Positions 28,248 to 55,394 of a stretch of 58,164 nt of DNA are shown one piece after another. The notes under the pieces were generated by a model, which saw only the letters and a list, made by a program, of their open reading frames with translations, had not been told where the DNA came from and ran no database searches. The position numbers and the translations under genes are program-made. Every line of letters begins with the position of its first letter. Position 1 is the stretch's first letter. Source of the DNA: Bacteroidota bacterium (lineage in GTDB: Bacteria; Bacteroidota; Bacteroidia; Bacteroidales; JABHKC01); the NCBI GenBank assembly GCA_018692315.1, contig JABHKC010000048.1:1-58164 (forward strand). The letters run 5' to 3'.

Positions 28248-31200
28248 ATGTTTTCAAAACATCTAAACATTGTGATTATATTATTGTTGATTGTTTTTAA
28301 TAATGCAAAATCACAAATAGCAATCACTCCTACCTCTGGATGTTCGCCTCTAACAGGTGTTTTGTTTAATTCTTCCGGATCCGGATTGTCGAACATATTA
28401 TGGGATTTTGGTGATGGAGCCAGTTCAATTGACACAATTGCTTATCACACATATTCCAATCCTGGAGTATATAATGTAATTATTACAGGACAAAACAATA
28501 ACGGCAATCAATTTTCAGACACTACAATTATTGAAGTTTTTGAGAATCCTATTGCCAATTTTCAACTTGAAAGTATTAATTTGGCTTGTACACCGTATTC
28601 GGCTGCATTCTCCGATAGTTCATACGCAATTGGTGCAGCCAGCATAGTTAGTTCAAACTGGACTTTCGGAGATGGAGCAACTTTACAGAGCAATAACCAG
28701 GCAAACGTTTTACACACGTATGTAACAACAGGTTTTTTTGATGTTTCGCTTGAGGTAGTTGATGACAATGGATGTTCTGACTTTATGCTGCTTGATAGTT
28801 TATTGACAATATCAAGTCCGCCAAATCCATCAATTTTTTCAAATATTCAAACTGTTACTGACTGCGATATTCCAATACTTGTTACTTTTTTTGGTTTTGC
28901 AAACACAAATTCGATTATATCTGATACAATATTCTATTCCTGGGATTTTGATAATGGAATAACAAGTGATTCTACAATTAATATGATTGAGTTTTATGAA
29001 GGAAACTACGATGTTTCGCTTGCAGTAACCGACAATTGGGGATGTACAGATACTCAAAGTTATCAATTAGACATAGTTGTTCCCGAAGCAAGTTTTATCA
29101 TTTCCAATTCAAATGATTTTTATATATGCGATTGTGCGTTTTTTATAAATACAAGTAATTTTTCAACTGTGTACTGGGATTATGGAGACGGAACAGGTGA
29201 TGTTAGCGGTTTTCATTGCTTTTCAGGACCAGGAAATTATGATGTAACACTTACGGTGGAAGAAGGAAACTGCTTTGATGATACCACTATTACTGTAATT
29301 CTGGAAGAAATAGTTGCAAATTTTGAGTATAATCCTGATTATAGCTGTTCAAGTCCTTTAGGAGTCCAGTTTACTGATTTGTCTATTAATGCAACATCAT
29401 GGATGTATTATTTTGGTGACGGCAATGTTAGCCCATTTCAAAATCCGTTTCACTATTTCTATGATACAGATACAGGATTGTATGATATGCCTCAATTAGA
29501 CATCTTTCACCCGTACCTTCTTGCCACTGACCAGCATGGATGTAATAATCAATTTTTTCATCCTGATCCTATTATTATTGACCTTCCGGTTGCCTGGTTT
29601 ATGCCAAATGTAAACTATGGATGTGTTCCTGTAACTGTAGATTTCAGCGATTCATCATATGGAGCTGGCAACATTGCAAACTGGTTTTGGGATTTTGGTG
29701 ATGGCACAACACTTAATTCAACAAGCGATAATGTATCACATACTTATTCTCAGGTCGGCATATATGAGGTTTATTTAACAATAACAAACGTTTCTGGATG
29801 TACAGATATTTCTTACCCAATAGAGATTGAAGTTTTAGATACGAGTGATATTATTTGCAACTTAAACACTCCAGTCATAGATTTATTTGTTTGTGCATGT
29901 TTCCCCGAATGTGGAAATTATCCACAAAGCTATTATTCTGCATATGAGCAAATGTTCGACCTTTTTACCGGTTGTGGATCTTTGGCACCTAATGTCTATT
30001 CTTTTGCTCAGGATACAGGATTTATTCCCATAGAGTTTTATGAATATTATGATAGCATACTATATCAACACCAGATTGCTTACCCACGAATATTTCTTGA
30101 GCCACCACTTGGACATATTTCATATGATTATGATTGTGCTCAACCATACCAGTTTCATTTTCATGCAAATGCAATTGGTGCAGATTCAATAGTTTGGGAT
30201 TTCGGCGATTTTACAGTAATTGATACCGGAAATGTATCTGATTATTTTCATAATTATAATGATAGGGGAGACTATATTGTTAAGTTGGAAATTCATAATT
30301 TTAGCACAGGATGTTTCATTCAGGATAGTCTGACTGTTTATGTCAGGGAAATCTATGCAGATTTTGTTGTTCAAGATGATGGATGTTCAGGAATTCCGGT
30401 ATTATTTAATGCAAATGACTCAGAAGATTTACATACTGCTTGTTTTACCGGCTACGAATGGGATTTTGGTTATGGAGTAGTAGAAAAGACACCTTTTCCT
30501 ACAATTTCCCACACTTACCATTCATGGAATTATGGACTGAATATCATAAAACTTACAGTTCAGGATATCAATGGTTGTTTTGACTATCATTTTGACACAA
30601 TTGACATACATTTTATAAGTGCAAACTTAGAGTTTGATCCGCAATATTTGTGTTCTCCGGGTTATATAAGTGTTAACGATCTGAGTTATGCTGATTCTAC
30701 AATTGTATCTTGGACATTCAACGTAAGCTCAGGTTTTAATATGAATTATGTGCCTGACTCTCTATATTTTAACTTTTTATATGATACTACGGTAAATGTT
30801 TACCTTTTAATTGAAGATACTTTTGGTTGCTATGATACTTTTTGGGATTTGATTCATATCTCAGCCATTGATTTCGAAATTAGTTCAAGTCAGCAGGATA
30901 TTTGCCCATCAGGAATTTCATTAATTGAAATATCTCAACCATACCCGGGCGTAACCTGGTATTTTGAAGACAGTATCAGTTATCCAAACAATGATACAAT
31001 GGTTATCCACACATTCGATGATCCTGGATTTTATGATGTAACAGTTGTGGTTGAGAAAAATGACGGATGTAAGGATTCTATAGTGTACCCCAACTTTATT
31101 CAAGTTCATGAAAATCCTATTGCACAAATTTTTTCTGATCCTTCCGAAGATACACTTTGTCTCCCTGTGCAGATAACTTTCATCGATTCTTCAATTGTTG

Positions 31201-34200
31201 ATGTATTTGGGTCAAGAGCATGGAATTTCTATAATTCAGCTTCCACTGCTCCAAGTCAAAGTGTGTTTATGCCCTATGAATTTCCGGGAACATATCAGGT
31301 TAGCCTGATAGAAACAAGTCAATTTGGCTGTAGCGACACGGTTACAAAAACTTTTGATGTAGAAGGTCCTTTAGCCGAATTTAGTTTAAATCCATCAATA
31401 ATTTGTCAGGGACATTCTATACAGGTTCAAATGTACGACACGAGCAATATCGTTAGCTGGTCATGGGATTTCGGCGATGGAAATATTGACAGTTCGCAAA
31501 GTACTTTTGTTGAGTATTATTACAATCCAAACTTCTATCCAAGCAGTAGTCAAACAATTATTTCATTGATTTATAGTTCGGAAAACTGTGAAGCAACTAA
31601 AACAGATTATATTGATTTTTACCCACAAATAGCTGCCGATTTTAGCTTCATTGGCAACAATGATTCCATAATTTGCCTTGGTTCAGCAATAACACTTAAC
31701 AATACCTCAGTTAATGCAAACAACTGGAACTGGGATATTGGTGATGGTACTACAATTACAAACAATGCTCCTCAAGTTACACATGTTTATCAGGATACAG
31801 GATATTATGAAATTAGTCTGATTGCTTCAAATGCAAATTTGTGCTTTGACACAATCAGGCGAAATATTTATGTAACAGACATTAATGCCGATATAGCTGT
31901 TAGTCCGCTTTTAATTTGTGATAGCGGAATGGTTCAATTTGTTAATAATTCATTTTCTTACACAGGAATTGAAACTACTTTGTTCAACTTTGGAGATGGT
32001 TTTCAGGCAGATAGTTTTACAGTCAATCATTTTTATAACAGTGTTCCAGCAGGTAACCAATACGAAATTGTTTTTACTATAAGCGATTTGGCCGGCTGTT
32101 CATCAACAGCAAATCTGGCTGTTCAATTTTCCAGTGCTGATGCAATTTTCTCAGTATCTGATCTTGACATTTGCATAGGTGAACAGATAGATTTTTGGGC
32201 AACAAATAATTATCCGATTTATAATTGGGATTTTGGAAATGGCATAAGTTCTACTTCTCAAAATCCTACACTTATATACAGTGCAACCGGAAATTATACA
32301 GTTAATCTTGCAGTTGAAGATACATGGGGCTGCATTGATACTTTTCATTATCCTATTGAAATTGCCGTTCACGATATGCCAACAGCTTCCTTTTCATACA
32401 GTCCCAATCAAACTGTAAGTTGTATTCCTGCCGAATACATTTTTGAAAATACCAGTTCCTGTCAGGATATGTACACATTAAGCTGGACAATTCCTCCAAT
32501 GATGTATAGTGCAAATATTGTTGAGTTAACTTGGACAGAAGTTGGCACCTATACTGTTAATCTTCTTGTCAGTACAGCTTTTGGATGTTCTGATTCTTTC
32601 AGTAATACATTTACAGTTGAAGGTCCGTCAGCCGATCTTATTTTATCGGCTGATGCAATTTGTATTAATACACCTCTGGGTTTGCAATTGCAAAATCCTG
32701 TGGATATTTCGAACTGGGTTTGGGATTTTGGTGATGGGACATTAGACCCAAGCTCAACATCATTTAGCCTAAACCATACATATGGGGGAAATTTTCAGGT
32801 AGATAGTATTTTTTATATTTCAGTTATTATCAATTCGCCAAATTGCTCCTATACACTTTTGGATTCTGTTTTGGTGGCTAATCCAATAGCAGATTTTACA
32901 ACAAATCCTATTGCCTGCCTGGGAACTCAATCGTTTTTTACGAACTTGTCAACTGGTTCAGACGAATGGATTTGGAATTTTGGTGATGGTAGCCCTAATT
33001 ATACAGGATCGGATGCTTATCATACCTATCAAAGTACAGGGCAGATGACAGTAACTCTATACGCTTATTACAATTCTGTTCAAGGATGTTTTGATTTTGA
33101 AACTTTCGATATTAATATAATCTACCCTGAATTAGAAATTTCCTTTGCAAATGATACTTTCTGCCTCGGAAATAGCGAGAATTTCACACTTTCAGTAAAT
33201 CAAGATGTTGAATCATGGTCAATATTGTTTTACCCAAATTCAACACCACTCAATGGTTCTGGAAATCTATCCGACAATTTTACATTTCCTACCAACGAAA
33301 ATATAGGTGCCTCAGTTACCCTTAGTGTTACATATTCGGGAGAAGATGGAAATTGCCCCTCGATATTTGAACTTCCGTTAAATTTCTTCGATGTAGAAGC
33401 CTTTTTCATTTGCACCAACGAGCCAGATTTAACTATTTGTAAAGGAGATACTTTCTACTTTCAGGAAAATTCAACAAATGCCGATGAGTTTAACTGGGAT
33501 TTTGGCGATGGAGCCAATGCAAATGGAGAAAATATTTTCCATCCATATGAAACTCCGGGAGAGTATTTTGTTACATTAAACATAGAAAATGCCAGTTGGG
33601 GCTGTCAGGATTCATATACTGAAAAAATGATAGTACGTGACGATGCAGTAGTCCTAACTCCTGAGATATGGATATGCGAAGGCGATTTGGCAGAACTTTC
33701 AGCAAGTGCTGAAGGAGGCATTACATATTATTTTTGGTCGCCCGATACATTATTTGAGAATCCAGAATCTCCCACCCAGCTGATAATTCTATACAATACT
33801 CAAACATTCGAAGTAAGTATTATTGATGGATTTGGTTGCCCTGGCTTTGGCGATTTGAAAGTTAATGTAATAATCACTCCATCTGCAATTTACTGGGATA
33901 CAAGCGTAATTATTGGCCAAACTGTTCAGTTGGATGCTTGGTTAGGAAACGGATTTGTTTATGAATGGGTTTACGATGAAACACTTGATGCTACCGATAT
34001 TTACGACCCTATTGTCTTAACTATTGTAGATAATACATATACGGTTTTGGTAACTGACCCAATTAATGATTGTTTTAAAATCACCAATACATACCATATT
34101 GATATTTTGCCTGAAACAAGCCTTGATTTACCAACTGTTTTTACTCCAAATAATGACGAAATCAACGATGTTTTTTTTCCACAAGGATGGGGAATCAAAG

Positions 34201-34391
34201 AAGTTGTGGAAATGAAAGTTTACAACAGATGGGGTGAATTAGTGTATGAATCTTATGATGACAATGCATCTTGGGACGGTACCTACAAAGGTAAAGATCA
34301 ACCAAACGACACTTATATTTATATTGTAAAAGTTAAATCCTGGCTTGATCAAACATTCGAAAAACGTGGTTACATTAACTTAATCAGATAA
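28248..34391 (+). CDS. Giant PKD-repeat surface protein with gliding-type (type B) T9SS C-terminal domain
   Basis: This 2047-residue exported protein has a signal peptide (LNIVIILLLIVFNNAKSQ). It is then almost entirely PKD-like domains: at least 15 variants of the core WDFGDG occur (for example WFWDFGDGTT, WSWDFGDGNI, WVWDFGDGTL, WIWNFGDGSP, FNWDFGDGAN), each followed by a strand with HTY or HxY and GxYxVxL. Paired cysteines recur in GC and C-x-P phrases. The last 90 residues are the gliding motility-associated (CHU_C, type B) sorting domain: LPTVFTPNNDEINDVFFP, VYNRWGELVYES, WDGTYKG and the final YINLIR. It is expected to cross the outer membrane through T9SS and stay on the surface. The next two genes encode PorP/SprF- and PorE-like proteins, as is usual for type B cargo. 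A role in adhesion or gliding is inference. Confidence 0.93.
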   Translation: MFSKHLNIVIILLLIVFNNAKSQIAITPTSGCSPLTGVLFNSSGSGLSNILWDFGDGASSIDTIAYHTYSNPGVYNVIITGQNNNGNQFSDTTIIEVFENPIANFQLESINLACTPYSAAFSDSSYAIGAASIVSSNWTFGDGATLQSNNQANVLHTYVTTGFFDVSLEVVDDNGCSDFMLLDSLLTISSPPNPSIFSNIQTVTDCDIPILVTFFGFANTNSIISDTIFYSWDFDNGITSDSTINMIEFYEGNYDVSLAVTDNWGCTDTQSYQLDIVVPEASFIISNSNDFYICDCAFFINTSNFSTVYWDYGDGTGDVSGFHCFSGPGNYDVTLTVEEGNCFDDTTITVILEEIVANFEYNPDYSCSSPLGVQFTDLSINATSWMYYFGDGNVSPFQNPFHYFYDTDTGLYDMPQLDIFHPYLLATDQHGCNNQFFHPDPIIIDLPVAWFMPNVNYGCVPVTVDFSDSSYGAGNIANWFWDFGDGTTLNSTSDNVSHTYSQVGIYEVYLTITNVSGCTDISYPIEIEVLDTSDIICNLNTPVIDLFVCACFPECGNYPQSYYSAYEQMFDLFTGCGSLAPNVYSFAQDTGFIPIEFYEYYDSILYQHQIAYPRIFLEPPLGHISYDYDCAQPYQFHFHANAIGADSIVWDFGDFTVIDTGNVSDYFHNYNDRGDYIVKLEIHNFSTGCFIQDSLTVYVREIYADFVVQDDGCSGIPVLFNANDSEDLHTACFTGYEWDFGYGVVEKTPFPTISHTYHSWNYGLNIIKLTVQDINGCFDYHFDTIDIHFISANLEFDPQYLCSPGYISVNDLSYADSTIVSWTFNVSSGFNMNYVPDSLYFNFLYDTTVNVYLLIEDTFGCYDTFWDLIHISAIDFEISSSQQDICPSGISLIEISQPYPGVTWYFEDSISYPNNDTMVIHTFDDPGFYDVTVVVEKNDGCKDSIVYPNFIQVHENPIAQIFSDPSEDTLCLPVQITFIDSSIVDVFGSRAWNFYNSASTAPSQSVFMPYEFPGTYQVSLIETSQFGCSDTVTKTFDVEGPLAEFSLNPSIICQGHSIQVQMYDTSNIVSWSWDFGDGNIDSSQSTFVEYYYNPNFYPSSSQTIISLIYSSENCEATKTDYIDFYPQIAADFSFIGNNDSIICLGSAITLNNTSVNANNWNWDIGDGTTITNNAPQVTHVYQDTGYYEISLIASNANLCFDTIRRNIYVTDINADIAVSPLLICDSGMVQFVNNSFSYTGIETTLFNFGDGFQADSFTVNHFYNSVPAGNQYEIVFTISDLAGCSSTANLAVQFSSADAIFSVSDLDICIGEQIDFWATNNYPIYNWDFGNGISSTSQNPTLIYSATGNYTVNLAVEDTWGCIDTFHYPIEIAVHDMPTASFSYSPNQTVSCIPAEYIFENTSSCQDMYTLSWTIPPMMYSANIVELTWTEVGTYTVNLLVSTAFGCSDSFSNTFTVEGPSADLILSADAICINTPLGLQLQNPVDISNWVWDFGDGTLDPSSTSFSLNHTYGGNFQVDSIFYISVIINSPNCSYTLLDSVLVANPIADFTTNPIACLGTQSFFTNLSTGSDEWIWNFGDGSPNYTGSDAYHTYQSTGQMTVTLYAYYNSVQGCFDFETFDINIIYPELEISFANDTFCLGNSENFTLSVNQDVESWSILFYPNSTPLNGSGNLSDNFTFPTNENIGASVTLSVTYSGEDGNCPSIFELPLNFFDVEAFFICTNEPDLTICKGDTFYFQENSTNADEFNWDFGDGANANGENIFHPYETPGEYFVTLNIENASWGCQDSYTEKMIVRDDAVVLTPEIWICEGDLAELSASAEGGITYYFWSPDTLFENPESPTQLIILYNTQTFEVSIIDGFGCPGFGDLKVNVIITPSAIYWDTSVIIGQTVQLDAWLGNGFVYEWVYDETLDATDIYDPIVLTIVDNTYTVLVTDPINDCFKITNTYHIDILPETSLDLPTVFTPNNDEINDVFFPQGWGIKEVVEMKVYNRWGELVYESYDDNASWDGTYKGKDQPNDTYIYIVKVKSWLDQTFEKRGYINLIR

Positions 34392-39283: not shown

Positions 39284-39680
39284 CATGCCTACCGCAAGTT
39301 TGTAACTTGTGGTCATCATAGTAAAAAGTCCCTGCGGGTTTTCAAAACCCGCAGGGTGGGGTGAACGAAATCGCGACATTTTATTTTTTTTCTTCGTTCA
39401 CATATTTTAAGCTCCAAAGGAGCGAAATCAATAGCAAAGAGTGAAGCCCTTTGTGAAAAAACAAATAATTATTCAAGCCCCAAAGGGGTGTAATCGTCTG
39501 ATAAACATTATATTTCGCCCCGTTGGGGCTTGATTATTGTTGCTATATTATTCGTAGGGCTTACACCCTACGCTTTTATATTTCGCTCCTTTGGAGCTTT
39601 ACTTTTTAAGTTCAAATATTTTTTTGAACGTATATTTTTTTGAAAATATTCTGATTTCTTTCACCCCACCCGCAGGGACT
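39284..39680. repeat. Nested REP-like palindrome cluster 1
   Basis: A 400-bp non-coding cluster arranged as nested inverted repeats. From the left: CAAGTTTGTAACTTG (39295-39309); a 13-bp perfect stem from CCCTGCGGG at 39330 to 39356; GCTCCaaaGGAGC with GAAAT tail (39411-39427); GCCCCaaaGGGG (39477-39488). From the middle to the right: GCCCCgttGGGGC preceded by ATTTC (39513-39529); GTAGGG/CCCTAC (39554-39571); GCTCCtttGGAGC preceded by ATTTC (39581-39597); and CCCGCAGGGACT (39669-39680), the inverse of AGTCCCTGCGGG at the left. No ORF fits the region. Confidence 0.85.
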
Positions 39681-39691
39681 GGTGCCAGCTT

Positions 39692-41545
39692 CTAATTAGC
39701 CGGATAAACCAAAGTAGCTACATCCTCCATTTTTATTGGATAACCTTCGCCGGGATACATATTTCCAATATTGTTAATGCTGTACATTGGCCAATAAACT
39801 AAACCAAGATCATTTTTTACCATTATGATAATATTTGAAATGCCGGTTAGCATGCTATCAATATCTCCGCTTGACTGACGCAGATAAGCCATAATATTCC
39901 AGCCGGCTTGTAAATTTATAGATGTAACTTCCGGCACAACTGCAACTCCGGTAACTTCAAGAATATTAAAAGCATCCATTTTTACGATATAGCCTTCGCC
40001 AATTGTTAAATCTCCAATATTATTAATTCCGTAAATTGGCCAATAAACCAGACCTGCCTCATCTTTCATAATTATAAGATTGGTATCAATATCAATAAAA
40101 ACAGAATCAAGATTTGGGATATCAATATCAATAAAAGTAGAAATAATAGACCAGCCCTGAACAAGGTCGATAGATTGACTGGCCGGTTCAGGATAATTTT
40201 GAGAAATTTTTGCGAGAAAAATATCTGTCCATGCAAAATGACCATAAACTGTATCATTATCAATGGATAATTCTCCAGCATAATCGCCACAAAGGTATAT
40301 ATCATTATCGTAGATACTAATATCTCTTGGACGATTATATTCACCTGCAATATTTTTTACCCACAGTACATCACCTGATGAACTATACTTTGCGACAAAT
40401 GAGTTTTGATAAGCAGAATACGGAAGGGTAAAGGTATCTAATTGAATTAAGCTAGTTAACCAATTGCTATAACCTCCTAAAAGATAAATATCATTATTAT
40501 TATCAATAGCAAGGTACCCGCAATAGCATTCACTTCCATATCCAAAGTTAGTCCAAATAATATTACCTACAGTATCTAATTTTGCAGCGAAAAAGTGCCG
40601 TGCATTTAGACCTGTATTAGAAGTCCAGACAGTATCATTATCTATCATAAATAATGTACTACTCTGATTCCATCCAATAATAACTAAATTATTTTCTGTA
40701 TCCATTTTCATATCAGTTATAAAACCTTCAATAGATTTGCCCCAAACACCATTTCCATTTGAATCTATTTTTACAAGAAAAGTGCCTCCTCCGAGAGTTG
40801 GTGTTAAAGAAATATTTGCAAATGTGAATGAAGAATAAAATATTCCTGATATATATACGTATCCATAATTATCAATTAATATTTTTTTTGGTTCGCTACT
40901 AATTGAGGACATTTCACCACTAATTAACCAGTCCTGATTGCCAATAGAATCATATTTTGCTAAGAATATATCTCCAATACCATTTGGATTATTAACAATG
41001 CTTGAACCAAAAGAAATAGATGGGCTTTCAAATTCTCCAATAACATATAAATTATTATTGTTATCATATTCAAAATCGACTGCCCAATCATTTCCAGTGC
41101 CACCAAAAACTTTTACCCACAATGGATTGTCATTAATGTCATATTTCCAAATTGCAGCATCTTGTTGCCCAAATCCAACAATTCCACTTGTATTTCCAAA
41201 CTGATTTGGTGAAAGGAGCCACCAGAAATTGGCAGACATAATGCCATCTCTATATTTAAATTTTTGGTTATAAGTATTAAAATCCACAACAATAGAATTG
41301 ATTGCACTTCCGTCATCATTAACAACAACCATACTTTGATTAGTGATTTGTATTGTATCTATCATAAAAGATTGAAATACACCACCAAACAACATATAAC
41401 AATTACCACTACTATCATTATCAATTACATAAGGATATTCTTCCCAATTTGAACCGGCAGAAAGTATCCATTCGCATTCTACTTCTTGTGTAAAAGACTG
41501 AAGGCTTATAATTAATGTAAGTACTATTAAAATAAAGATTTTCAT
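39692..41545 (-). CDS. Secreted beta-propeller (SBBP-repeat) protein, apparently C-terminally shortened
   Basis: This 617-residue exported protein has a signal peptide (KIFILIVLTLIISLQSFTQ). Residues about 50-445 form a propeller of SBBP-type repeats (IFLAKYDSIGNQDWLISGE, GTFLVKIDSNGNGVWGKSI and FVAKYSSSGDVLWVKNIAGE). From about 460 to the end it has two lobes of a module also found in the next gene (GWSIISTFI...VYWPIYGINNIGDLTIGEGY and GWNIMAYLR...MYPGEGY). It stops right after the second lobe with VYPAN, whereas its neighbour continues into a further domain and a T9SS sorting signal. The palindrome cluster reaches to within 12 bp of the stop. A truncated T9SS cargo is the likely reading. 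Confidence 0.78.
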   Translation of the reverse strand: MKIFILIVLTLIISLQSFTQEVECEWILSAGSNWEEYPYVIDNDSSGNCYMLFGGVFQSFMIDTIQITNQSMVVVNDDGSAINSIVVDFNTYNQKFKYRDGIMSANFWWLLSPNQFGNTSGIVGFGQQDAAIWKYDINDNPLWVKVFGGTGNDWAVDFEYDNNNNLYVIGEFESPSISFGSSIVNNPNGIGDIFLAKYDSIGNQDWLISGEMSSISSEPKKILIDNYGYVYISGIFYSSFTFANISLTPTLGGGTFLVKIDSNGNGVWGKSIEGFITDMKMDTENNLVIIGWNQSSTLFMIDNDTVWTSNTGLNARHFFAAKLDTVGNIIWTNFGYGSECYCGYLAIDNNNDIYLLGGYSNWLTSLIQLDTFTLPYSAYQNSFVAKYSSSGDVLWVKNIAGEYNRPRDISIYDNDIYLCGDYAGELSIDNDTVYGHFAWTDIFLAKISQNYPEPASQSIDLVQGWSIISTFIDIDIPNLDSVFIDIDTNLIIMKDEAGLVYWPIYGINNIGDLTIGEGYIVKMDAFNILEVTGVAVVPEVTSINLQAGWNIMAYLRQSSGDIDSMLTGISNIIIMVKNDLGLVYWPMYSINNIGNMYPGEGYPIKMEDVATLVYPAN

Positions 41546-41728: not shown

Positions 41729-44700
41729 TTACAATATCACGATTTTTTTTGTAGTATTATAACTTTTTGATGAAAGTTTAATTAGATATGTGCCTGGTGA
41801 AAGAGAACCAAGCTGATAGTTATAGGAATGATATCCTTTTGTCAATTCCTTTGAAATAATATTATCTATCTTTGATCCAAACATATCAAATAAATTAACT
41901 TTTATAGATTCTTTTTTTAGAAGGTAGAAATTTATTTTAAAATTGTCTTTGCAAGGATTTGGAGAAATCGGATAAAAAACTACAGATTCCGGAACAATTT
42001 CTTGCATTTTTCCTGCAATACTTATTCCATCATTTTCATATTTTTCGCTACCTTCAATCCATTCGGGAACTTTAAATTCTCGTTCTATACCGGAAAATGA
42101 ATTATAAACTTTTATAGCGAATTTTTCATTTTCATTAAGCCCTTCCTTTATATTTGAACTTTTATCATCTCCATGAACTAAAAATATAATATTCTTGCTT
42201 TCGAAAACTGCTGCCCCACATAGATTGCCCTGAGAATCGAAAACACCGATTTCATCACCATGATCAGGTATATAATCCCATGAATCTATAGGTATGCCTA
42301 AGCCCATTGTATTATATGTTTTGAAATAGTCCTGATAATATGAAATTTCAGGTTTTTCCATTGGCAAATTATAAGTTTTCGTTACAGTATTTGGATAAAT
42401 TAATGTAACTGGATTTGATGGATTAGAAACGAGTTTACAATAATAGCCTTCGCCTGGTTTCATTTCACCAATTTGATTTACCCAACCTGGAAAATAAATG
42501 AAACCAACATCATCTTTAACATACATAACATCAGTAGCAACATTAGCGATCATTGTTTCAATCATCTCATCAGTATAACGTAAATAGCCAAATAAACTTT
42601 CCTGATCCTCTAATAGTATTGGATAATTATATGGAACTTTTGCACCGATAATTCTAAGATCGTGTGTTAGTTCATTCATATGAATTTTAAATCCTTCGCC
42701 AGGTATTATATCATTTATTTCATTTATTACATCTGGTATATATTGTTTTATATCCTGATTTCCATTTTGAAGACCATTCTTATATCGCTGAATTTCATCA
42801 ACATAAGGTTCAATCTCTTTTAAAACGAATTCAATTTCAGGACATAAGGGATGTATATATGTCGAAATATAATCCCAGGTTTTTCCAAGTTCAATTTTTT
42901 GTTGATTAGAAACAAGTTCGAAAAGTTGTGAATTGCCACTTGCTGTGAACGTTACGAAATCATAACTAAGGTTTGTGCCCCAAGCAGAATATTCAATGTT
43001 TTCATTTTTGTCATGAATTACCCATGTTATCCTCTCGTTTGGTTCAAATCCATCATCGGCTCCAGTACTTGATTCACCATATGCTATTACAGTGGTACCG
43101 CTTGTTGTACTCCATTCGGCATATCCGCCACAAGCCATATCATATTCGCTGGTCATATAAAAAACTCCAATTATATCCCCATCCTCAAGTGGCACTTGTT
43201 GATTTGTCGCTAAATCAACTTTTCTCATACCTGTGGTACTAGGTATTACAATTGTATGAGTTGATCCTGAAGTTTGATGTTGCCATTGTAATATGCTTGT
43301 TTCGAATGCCCCTTTATCTAAACCATAACAAGTTGGTCTGCTTTTGTAGTTTTGATCAAATTCGATTGGATAATCAAAAGCATTATCAATACAAGGAGAA
43401 TACATAGACAAATTATAATCCGAATTTAACGCATCAATAAATTTAACATCAGAGATATCGTCAGTACCGTAATTATCACTATTAGTCCATGTCGATAGTC
43501 CATTAATAATATTAATATCAGTATTTGAAGAGTTATGAACAATAATATTATTGAATATTTTTTTTATAGATGGCCATGAATTTTGAATATATATTCCATC
43601 TTCCTCCGAATCAATAATTGTATTATTATATATACTATATCCATTACCAGCACTATAACTATAAACAGGATTTTCTGAATACCAATTAATATATATTCCA
43701 TGACCATCATCAGTATTAGGCACATTCCCAGCATCTTTTATTACATTGTTAAAGATATTAATATCATATGAGCTTTTTGAACCAATACCTTCTCCGGTTC
43801 CGTTTTCAATCCAGTTGTTATAAACTGAAGCTTGAAAAGTTCCTCCACCGATAAAAATACCTGCATTATTCATACCGTCTTTTAGTCCATAGTTTTTTAT
43901 TACATTATCATGGATCACTATTCCAAGACTATCATTTGATATTTTTATTCCTGTTGCACCAGTGTTTTCGGTAATATTACCATAAACTTGTATGTTTTTC
44001 AATTCAGCCCAAAATATTTTATAGCTTGTTTGTCCACAAGTTAAAGTAGAATATTGATAAGGATAGGAATGTCCAATATACATGCCTTCTTTTCCCACAT
44101 CATGAATATAATTGTTTCTTAAAATAACATTTTCAATAAAATATCCTTCAGTAAAAATATTAGTTGATAAATCTATATAATTTCCCCATCTTTCAAAAAT
44201 ATTTTGTGGAGCACATCCCCCTCCACCTACATGATAATAAGGAAGTGGATCATTAATATATATCCCTGCTGTATTATTACTAGATACTAATATGTCATTA
44301 GGATCACCATAGATTTCAATATTTTCAATTATAAAGTCATGGCACTTACCATCAAATGATATTCCATCTGTATAAGCTCCATTTTTTTTTGTATAAAGTT
44401 TTATTCCATATGGATCAGAAGTATTGGTACTACTTGTTAATACAAAGTTCGTGCAATTTCTAAAAACAATGCAAAAACCATTTCCTCCTCCTGATGTTGT
44501 TGTTCCATTTATTACAACAGGAATATTACTCTTGTTAACAATATATGTATAACCATCACTATTATTAGGAGCTCCGGTAATATCTTTAAAATAAATGTTA
44601 TTTCTTTCGCCATTGACATCTCCTTGAATATAGATTGTATCTCTTGCTGTTTGGTTATATGATTCATCAAACGAGGGATCAGTTGCATCAATAGGATATG

Positions 44701-44767
44701 TGCTATACTGTGCCATAATACTATTAACTATTATTAATAATAAACTAAGAATTAAATACTTTTTCAT
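41729..44767 (-). CDS. T9SS-exported right-handed beta-helix protein
   Basis: This 1012-residue protein has a signal peptide (KKYLILSLLLIIVNSIMAQ). A right-handed beta-helix covers roughly residues 60-490 (IFNNVIKDAGNVPN, GYSIYNNTIIDSEEDGIYIQN and IKKIFNNIIVHNSSN), suggesting carbohydrate binding or lyase-like architecture, though no catalytic signature was recognised. Next come a GDxIGVF domain (about 525-620), the two-lobed PGEG(Y/F) module (about 627-790), a second GDEIGVF domain (about 835-920), and a type A T9SS sorting domain (FYPISPNPCKDNFKINFYL to TKKIVIL, about 927-1012). It is expected on the cell surface or released. It is the upstream neighbour of the propeller gene on the same strand, 183 bp apart. 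Confidence 0.88.
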   Translation of the reverse strand: MKKYLILSLLLIIVNSIMAQYSTYPIDATDPSFDESYNQTARDTIYIQGDVNGERNNIYFKDITGAPNNSDGYTYIVNKSNIPVVINGTTTSGGGNGFCIVFRNCTNFVLTSSTNTSDPYGIKLYTKKNGAYTDGISFDGKCHDFIIENIEIYGDPNDILVSSNNTAGIYINDPLPYYHVGGGGCAPQNIFERWGNYIDLSTNIFTEGYFIENVILRNNYIHDVGKEGMYIGHSYPYQYSTLTCGQTSYKIFWAELKNIQVYGNITENTGATGIKISNDSLGIVIHDNVIKNYGLKDGMNNAGIFIGGGTFQASVYNNWIENGTGEGIGSKSSYDINIFNNVIKDAGNVPNTDDGHGIYINWYSENPVYSYSAGNGYSIYNNTIIDSEEDGIYIQNSWPSIKKIFNNIIVHNSSNTDINIINGLSTWTNSDNYGTDDISDVKFIDALNSDYNLSMYSPCIDNAFDYPIEFDQNYKSRPTCYGLDKGAFETSILQWQHQTSGSTHTIVIPSTTGMRKVDLATNQQVPLEDGDIIGVFYMTSEYDMACGGYAEWSTTSGTTVIAYGESSTGADDGFEPNERITWVIHDKNENIEYSAWGTNLSYDFVTFTASGNSQLFELVSNQQKIELGKTWDYISTYIHPLCPEIEFVLKEIEPYVDEIQRYKNGLQNGNQDIKQYIPDVINEINDIIPGEGFKIHMNELTHDLRIIGAKVPYNYPILLEDQESLFGYLRYTDEMIETMIANVATDVMYVKDDVGFIYFPGWVNQIGEMKPGEGYYCKLVSNPSNPVTLIYPNTVTKTYNLPMEKPEISYYQDYFKTYNTMGLGIPIDSWDYIPDHGDEIGVFDSQGNLCGAAVFESKNIIFLVHGDDKSSNIKEGLNENEKFAIKVYNSFSGIEREFKVPEWIEGSEKYENDGISIAGKMQEIVPESVVFYPISPNPCKDNFKINFYLLKKESIKVNLFDMFGSKIDNIISKELTKGYHSYNYQLGSLSPGTYLIKLSSKSYNTTKKIVIL

Positions 44768-55140: not shown

Positions 55141-55394
55141 TTGCCACAAGTTTTAAACTTGCAGCAGTTTGGCAAAAAGTCCTGAAAGGACGAAATGTAA
55201 AAGCATAGGGTGAAAACCCTACGAAAAAAAACACAGAAGAAACAAAATCCTGTAGGGATGAGATCAGAATCTATCGTTTGTAATTTCTATACCATTTAAT
55301 AATTTCAGCCTTTCAGGATTCACAAAATGATGATGGCATTTCATTCTCAGGGTTTACACCCAGAGCTATAACATTCCGTCCTTTCAGGACTTTC
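55141..55394. repeat. Nested REP-like palindrome cluster 2
   Basis: Laid out like cluster 1. CAAGTTTTAAACTTG (55147-55161) lies inside a TTGCCA/TGGCAA pair. Then come GTCCTgaaAGGAC followed by GAAAT (55179-55196), TAGGGTgaaaACCCTA (55206-55221), ATCCTGTAGGGAT (55248-55260), CCTttcAGG (55309-55317), CTCaGGGTttacACCCaGAG (55346-55365), and GTCCTttcAGGAC (55378-55390), the exact inverse of the left unit. The same unit types as cluster 1 recur with different stem bases. Confidence 0.82.

Follow-up and report, generated by a model that had tools for sequence, protein, structure and literature searches.

Two intergenic hairpin clusters in a 58,164-nucleotide stretch of a Bacteroidota genome (contig JABHKC010000048.1, hereafter the window) very probably represent non-autonomous REPIN- or MITE-like DNA elements, each consisting of the paired inverted ends that flank a Y1 HuH (IS200-like) transposase gene, with no gene in between. 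They are best read as non-autonomous because the position that the transposase gene holds in complete loci is taken in the clusters by a short spacer. This reading draws on a common plan of hairpins, its recurrence, covariation within the stems, a strand bias among mismatched pairs and the adjacency of the same hairpins to transposase (TnpA) genes in many bacterial groups, all of which are seen directly in the sequences. We also favour, with less assurance, an extension to the Rfam family RF01687 as a whole: it would be a three-hairpin single-strand DNA substrate of one Y1 HuH clade instead of an RNA, constituting a separate REP-type system that record titles place in about ten phylum-level groups, with hairpins on the complement of the Rfam strand, and spreading gene-less elements like clusters 1 and 2.

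Two clusters share one plan of inverted hairpins

Both clusters follow the plan A-B-A2-spacer-A2'-B'-A', in which the primed parts are reverse complements of the unprimed parts and stand in mirrored order. Their features are as follows.

55177-55393: cluster 2, whole element
55178-55223, minus strand: cluster 2 left arm (A + B), RF01687 match, 43.4 bits (gathering score 37)
55179-55191: cluster 2 hairpin A, GTCCTGAAAGGAC, followed by GAAAT
55204-55223: cluster 2 hairpin B
55246-55264, plus strand: cluster 2 hairpin A2, the inner A-type hairpin of the left arm (stem 55247-55259)
55265-55301, no strand: cluster 2 spacer, at the position held by the transposase gene in relatives
55302-55320, plus strand: cluster 2 hairpin A2', inner hairpin of the right arm, imperfect
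55346-55365: cluster 2 hairpin B'
55346-55391, plus strand: cluster 2 right arm (B' + A'), RF01687 match, 42.7 bits
55378-55390: cluster 2 hairpin A', GTCCTTTCAGGAC, exact reverse complement of A
39330-39372, plus strand: cluster 1 outer module, hairpin 39330-39356 plus GGTGGGGTGAACGAAATC at 39355-39372
About 39408-39606: cluster 1, whole element
39410-39453, minus strand: cluster 1 left arm (A + B), weak match to model R1 (see below), 30.1 bits
About 39411-39423: cluster 1 hairpin A, GCTCCAAAGGAGC
39435-39453: cluster 1 hairpin B, AAAG/CTTT stem
39475-39495, plus strand: cluster 1 hairpin A2 (stem about 39478-39488), from reading the sequence
39517-39529, plus strand: cluster 1 hairpin A2'
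39553-39572: cluster 1 hairpin B'
39553-39598, plus strand: cluster 1 right arm (B' + A'), RF01687 match, 47.8 bits
39585-39597: cluster 1 hairpin A'
39653-39670, minus strand: cluster 1 frame, inverted copy of the outer motif, GGTGGGGTGAAAGAAATC

An earlier note on this DNA had described two clusters with the same plan in different bases, a description that holds unit by unit, and had taken the far-side stem for the exact inverse of the first, as A' is of A in cluster 2. The TAGGGT-type hairpin that it placed in both clusters is present on the far side of cluster 1, but hairpin B on the near side has the AAAG/CTTT stem instead. The outer stretches of cluster 2 (55176-55230 and 55339-55393), each of 55 nt, show 80% complementarity. 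Folded as DNA, cluster 2 reaches a z-score of -6.69 and cluster 1 one of -10.13, and none of 200 shuffles folded as well in either case.

Two repeats extend past the hairpins. The segment 55307-55424, comprising the right half of cluster 2 plus some 33 nt beyond A', recurs with 88% identity on contig C178 (locus L008, 1468-1586); the sequences suggest a copied unit larger than the hairpins, reaching at least 30 nt beyond A' in cluster 2. The outer inverted repeat that frames cluster 1, GGTGGGGTGAAMGAAATC, recurs near RF01687-type hairpins on contig C91 (L153, 1665-1682), and one repeat may be nested inside another at cluster 1.

RF01687-type repeats are dispersed in this genome

A cmscan of the window returned three matches to RF01687 (Acido-Lenti-1) at or above the gathering score of 37 bits (47.8, 43.4 and 42.7), one in cluster 1 and two in cluster 2, and no other Rfam family; the window also contains no tRNA. 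Each match is a hairpin pair B + A with a 12-nt linker. Model R1 was built from 31 same-phylum sequences, taken from 37 RF01687 matches after omission of six that were weak or oddly spaced (L005, L006, L007, L047, L050 and L051); four of the 31 (L032, L039, L040 and L044) come from TnpA flanks.

In this genome RF01687 has 8 matches and R1 has 14, which combine to 12 sites, all outside called genes. The full plan is visible by eye at 4 of the 12, always as an inverted pair: at clusters 1 and 2 and on contigs C90 and C240, the latter two being the kind of further example that the earlier note had proposed to look for. Across the phylum, 42 of 198 sampled genomes carry RF01687 matches at an E-value of 0.001, 21 of them over the cutoff, with up to 29 per genome. 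Dispersed intergenic copies together with inverted pairs, the arrangement by which REP/REPIN families are recognized, are found both here and in genome G112.

The same hairpins flank a clade of Y1 transposase genes

The transposase domain PF01797 (Y1_Tnp) is encoded in 41 of the 42 genomes with RF01687 matches, so its presence alone says little. Location is more specific: several RF01687 matches, including the sole match in G188 and in G154, lie 100 to 300 bp from Y1 genes. Among 70 Y1 loci, taken from more than 70 listed and with many low scorers left out, R1 matched 26 at 20 bits or more, while 35 scored below 18 bits or had no match; not every member of the subclass thus carries the motif. 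The positives include a complete clade of 11 in the Y1 tree (support 99/95; 11 of 11 at 20 bits or more), or 8 of 8 once three genes whose flanks had trained R1 are removed. As a control, R1 matched 1 of 30 recA loci, drawn from 30 of the 42 genomes (p = 2e-4 against all Y1 loci and 4e-9 against the clade of 11).

Ten TnpA proteins encoded beside the repeats were aligned. They are about 150 amino acids long, HxH, Y115, Q119, H122 and H123 are invariant, and the predicted catalytic residues are intact in all ten. The four proteins compared with NCBIfam matched IS200/IS605 models above cutoff, with the REP-tyrosine model below cutoff or absent; L061, the one TnpA run against Pfam, matched Y1_Tnp only. 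A profile of the ten proteins matches IS608 TnpA structures (E 1.5e-15). From the Y---Q--HH signature in our own alignment, these proteins appear to belong to subclass 1.2 of PMC6006769. That paper describes subclass 1.2 as generally without typical hairpins, and its table lists no REP for it; the clade studied here is flanked by hairpins.

A contig scan with the ten-protein profile kept the best 80 of 578 relatives, which are 80 different genes and, by selection, those most like a profile built from genes already known beside the motif (L190, one of the 80, is itself a source of the profile). Within these best 80 of 578, R1 matches occur at 78 loci, with L163 matching only half of the model and L207 and L219 having no match; 73 of the 80 have a match of at least 20 bits no more than 250 bp from the gene, and matches drop off fast beyond 300 bp. 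Upstream matches lie on the minus strand 58 times and on the plus strand 22 times, downstream matches on the plus strand 50 times and on the minus strand 20 times, and 43 of the 80 loci carry the canonical inverted arrangement on both sides (upstream minus, downstream plus).

Record titles place these best 80 of 578 loci in Bacteroidota, Ignavibacteria, Acidobacteriota, Lentisphaerota, Kiritimatiellota, Verrucomicrobiota, Planctomycetota, Armatimonadota, KSB1 and Delta- and other Proteobacteria; because many of the records come from metagenome bins, individual assignments may be in error, and newer schemes unite some of the groups. Twenty loci with non-Bacteroidota titles were chosen from the 80 (L161, L164, L176 and L239, with such titles, were left out). 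The unmodified RF01687 model reached its gathering score at 4 of these 20: in Lentisphaeria (L203), Acidobacteriota (L215), Planctomycetota (L225) and a Deltaproteobacteria MAG (L235), a set that includes both founding phyla of the family. Within the window's own order, R1 matched 17 of 20 TnpA loci and RF01687 reached gathering at 4 of 20. Repeats that flank a Y1 HuH TnpA gene, a further hallmark of REP/REPIN systems, are present in relatives and not in this genome.

The genome level gives a weaker test. A TnpA match of at least 200 bits is present in 17 genomes, and 13 of these carry RF01687 matches, compared with 29 of the 181 others (p = 4e-7). The comparison is partly circular in that ten of the 17 supplied the TnpA profile; without these it becomes 3 of 7 versus 29 of 181 (p = 0.10). 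The four strong-TnpA genomes that lack RF01687 have an R1 match of 19 to 40 bits beside the gene.

The plan occurs with and without the transposase gene

Complete loci link the plan to the gene. By eye, L080 reads A-B-A2-tnpA-A2'-B'-A', and in L075 and L056 the order A2'-B'-A' directly follows the stop codon. Among cases with at least 16 bases separating the motif from the gene, 18 of 43 on the upstream side have a perfect 5-bp hairpin in the interval from B to the gene (0.4 expected), as do 21 of 40 on the downstream side (0.6 expected). Genome G112, which holds the TnpA locus L061, also has gene-less full-plan copies at five places (L296, L301, twice in L306, and L307) and A2'-B'-A' halves at many more. 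Clusters 1 and 2 of the window correspond to this gene-less form.

The profile finds no subclass 1.2 TnpA in this genome (0 matches), though it does match in 73 of the 119 genomes sampled from its order; the absence would be explained either by a gap in the 248-contig assembly or by loss of TnpA once the repeats had spread. The other Y1 matches of this genome (L009 to L013) have no R1 match at their loci, and these proteins were rejected as the cognate enzymes. As a separate observation, L009, L010 and L011 (G000 contigs C219, C34 and C126) are frames of 1057 to 1097 amino acids with Eco57I/MmeI-type methylase domains and a Y1_Tnp match in mid-protein, as if a Y1 domain lay within a restriction-modification enzyme.

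A comparison of contig C8 of G016 with contig C86 of its relative G011 gave no clean filled and empty pair: long pieces are 79 to 96% identical and the intergenic regions are rearranged. In 20 same-order relatives the best identity to the RelA/SpoT-type gene flanking cluster 2 was 47%, too distant for use. The dispersed copies closest to the TnpA-side copies are those of the same genome in G164, G185 and G162, and by a small margin in G112, at margins of 0.02 to 0.09 in mean identity. In G016 the copies closest to the TnpA-side copies are not those of the same genome, for which L122 accounts in part. The pattern, in four of five genomes, is no more than suggestive of a cognate matching of repeats and TnpA inside genomes.

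Covariation, folding strand and alternative readings

The earlier note held that structure is kept while stem letters change, and the alignments bear this out with strong covariation. Double changes occur at 12 of 13 pairs in the 31 same-phylum sequences and at 13 of 13 pairs in 138 distinct TnpA-locus sequences (from the best 150 of 177 matches), where 93.6% of cells pair; this alignment was fitted to the structure, which favours pairing, and a MAFFT alignment of the 31 sequences gives 90.2%.

Read on the Rfam strand, the non-Watson-Crick cells of the 138 sequences comprise 80 A.C and 12 G.T. Without the loop-closing pair the counts are 47 A.C versus 7 G.T, from 27 loci versus 6 (p = 2e-8 on the assumption of independent rows, which the rows are not), and the 31-sequence set leans the same way (13 versus 5). 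A G.T pair is a better tolerated mismatch than A.C. Since an A.C mismatch reads as G.T on the opposite strand, the aligned sequences indicate that folding probably takes place on the complement of the Rfam strand. The bias should not be made by the model, because the model rewards G.U. Taken alone, it does not separate an RNA of the other strand from single-stranded DNA.

Covariation by itself fits RNA as well, and the clusters could be transcribed and act on neighbouring genes, with RF01687 a true small RNA or RNA regulator. Rfam files the family as an sRNA gene, Weinberg 2010 marks it 'y' for RNA and 'n' for cis-regulatory, and a 2026 paper (PMC13298647) guesses at a regulatory role for RF01687 downstream of Tannerella protease genes. 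We regard this explanation as very improbable: the motif adjoins TnpA genes across many phyla, often as inverted pairs; the rarity of G.U pairs makes the Rfam strand, at least, probably the wrong one; and position with respect to other genes varies, cluster 1 lying between convergent and cluster 2 between divergent genes, a poor fit to one fixed transcript role. The Tannerella Acido-Lenti-1 matches of PMC13298647 could be transposase-associated repeats instead.

That the hairpins belong to another Y1 protein of this genome, such as the class 2.6-like L013, or to none, with only the hairpin style in common, is less probable again. The genome does lack a subclass 1.2 TnpA, and L013 is REP_Tyr_transpos-like (51.9 bits, below the cutoff of 80); against this, L012 and L013 are among the loci without an R1 match, the repeats here reach the RF01687 gathering score and share the linker and three-hairpin order with TnpA loci, and the TnpA profile is common in the order, as given above. 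Least probable of these readings is that the hairpins are ordinary terminators, or insulate against read-through around a transposase gene or between genes. Terminator-like patterns do exceed those in shuffles (3 versus 0.3 in the cluster 2 gap and 5 versus 0.7 in the cluster 1 gap), and the repeats can act as terminators as a side effect. Terminators, however, need neither a conserved linker nor the three-hairpin order nor dispersed near-identical copies, and cluster 2 lies upstream of both neighbours, so that no transcript of theirs ends there.

Proposed mechanism and its implications

Under the preferred reading, in which the clusters are gene-less transposase-locus ends, one end would consist of the three short hairpins A, B and A2 and the other of the same three reversed, with a gene for a TnpA of about 150 amino acids between A2 and A2' in a complete locus. 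When the DNA becomes single-stranded, for example at replication, the hairpins would fold on one strand. TnpA, with its HuH motif and catalytic tyrosine, would recognize them through their shape and the unpaired linker, nick beside them and rejoin them, so that ends are copied or moved into other intergenic places. Stems would change by paired substitutions because folding and linker outweigh the stem letters. PMC6006769 describes hairpins in single-stranded DNA as the binding sites of HuH Y1 enzymes, which cut adjacent to them; by analogy, we infer that TnpA would bind, cleave and mobilize the hairpins here, and that the copies in this genome were probably moved by a TnpA now missing from the genome or the assembly. 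The earlier note was right about plan and structure, and what its account lacked is this mechanism, hairpin ends of a transposase system.

With such a system, an Rfam family that lacks a function would gain one, and the transposase subclass that was said in 2018 to be generally devoid of such structures would gain a likely substrate. It would caution annotators against taking Acido-Lenti-1 matches as regulatory RNAs, and it opens to experiment the question of how HuH enzymes retain a substrate that preserves its fold as its stem letters vary.

Relation to known Y1-associated repeats

Like REP, BIME and REPIN sequences and the REPtron of TnpA_REP (RAYT), the RF01687-type repeats are short, intergenic, multi-copy hairpins that form inverted pairs and flank a Y1 HuH gene. 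Unlike RAYTs, the TnpA here is of the IS200-near Y---Q--HH type (in the four proteins run), and unlike REPs the ends are three-hairpin composites; the modelled columns contain no GT[AG]G foot, in a model that omits the 5' side of hairpin B. As in TIRtrons with their TIRYT proteins (Di Nocera 2013, PMC3733652), a Y1 gene lies between long inverted repeats, and that paper describes some TIRYT repeats as double palindromes and some as repeat families in certain genomes. PMC6006769 places 20 of 26 described TIRYTs in subclass 2.1, with HTH tails; the TnpA here differs in its length of about 150 amino acids and its Y---Q--HH signature, and shows no C-terminal HTH (L061 matches Y1_Tnp only).

The repeats also resemble IS200/IS605 elements in having a related TnpA and hairpins close to both ends. 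Unlike the same-orientation subterminal hairpins of those elements, the ends here are mostly inverted (upstream minus 58 versus plus 22 in the best 80 of 578), and subclass 1.2 does not have IS properties according to PMC6006769. The B + A hairpin pair is that of the Rfam RF01687 entry itself, from which our account differs in reading it as DNA ends with the complement as the likely folding strand. Class 3 Y1 repeats with the foot CnGA, which PMC6006769 reports from Solibacter, are likewise multi-copy structures of an atypical kind that adjoin a Y1 gene, in Acidobacteria and Planctomycetes; they are set apart here by their other TnpA signature. Our literature search found no tie of RF01687 to a transposase in the sources covered; preprints and most subscription papers lay outside it, so a published link is possible.

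Neighbouring genes and a flanking palindrome family

Cluster 2 lies between divergent genes, one of RelA/SpoT type and one with FG-GAP and T9SS features, and cluster 1 between convergent genes, a UPF0047 gene and one that is weakly SBBP propeller-like (70.3 bits, cutoff 400). The earlier note had placed both clusters next to a propeller-type surface protein gene. Across sites, the association with surface-protein genes is weak. A single crude signal-peptide rule gives a secreted neighbour at 8 of 12 sites, with one neighbour absent or cut at C148 and C240, and at 30 of 58 background gaps (p = 0.27). Of the 10 other sites, 4 adjoin a relative of the two propeller genes of the window, compared with 8 of 59 gaps (one-sided p = 0.06). 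When five site neighbours serve as queries, the wider count is 6 of 12 versus 10 of 59 (p = 0.02), a comparison that is partly circular. The background gaps come from about 368 kb of this genome, on contigs covered by this analysis, and are not a random draw. The p = 0.06 result hints that long gaps around large surface genes tolerate such repeats, and some sites adjoin genes named by eye as lipoate ligase, dihydrolipoamide dehydrogenase or ATPase.

The genes at 39692-41545, 41729-44767 and 28248-34391 and those at C90, C178, C221 and C240 encode large, mostly secreted-looking proteins that are sequence-related by phmmer, several of them through a C-terminal stretch ending ...INNIGNMxPGEGY.... 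In Pfam, 41729-44767 has a T9SS tail and a sub-threshold beta-helix only, and 39692-41545 has no match.

A CAAGTTT palindrome lies beside each cluster.

39295-39309, no strand: palindrome CAAGTTTGTAACTTG beside cluster 1
55147-55161, no strand: palindrome CAAGTTTTAAACTTG beside cluster 2, outside the core element

The earlier note had both clusters begin with it. The pattern CAAGTTTNNAACTTG is present at both positions, but it belongs to a separate dispersed family and not to the core element: as a candidate part of the element it was rejected, since 7 of its 10 places have no listed RF01687-type match nearby and the other 3 are near such a repeat at differing distances. Those 10 places are all that the 4.98-Mb genome holds, the same pattern read backwards occurs at none, and the family typically reads GCCGCAAGTTTGCAACTTGTGGC, with ends that vary somewhat.
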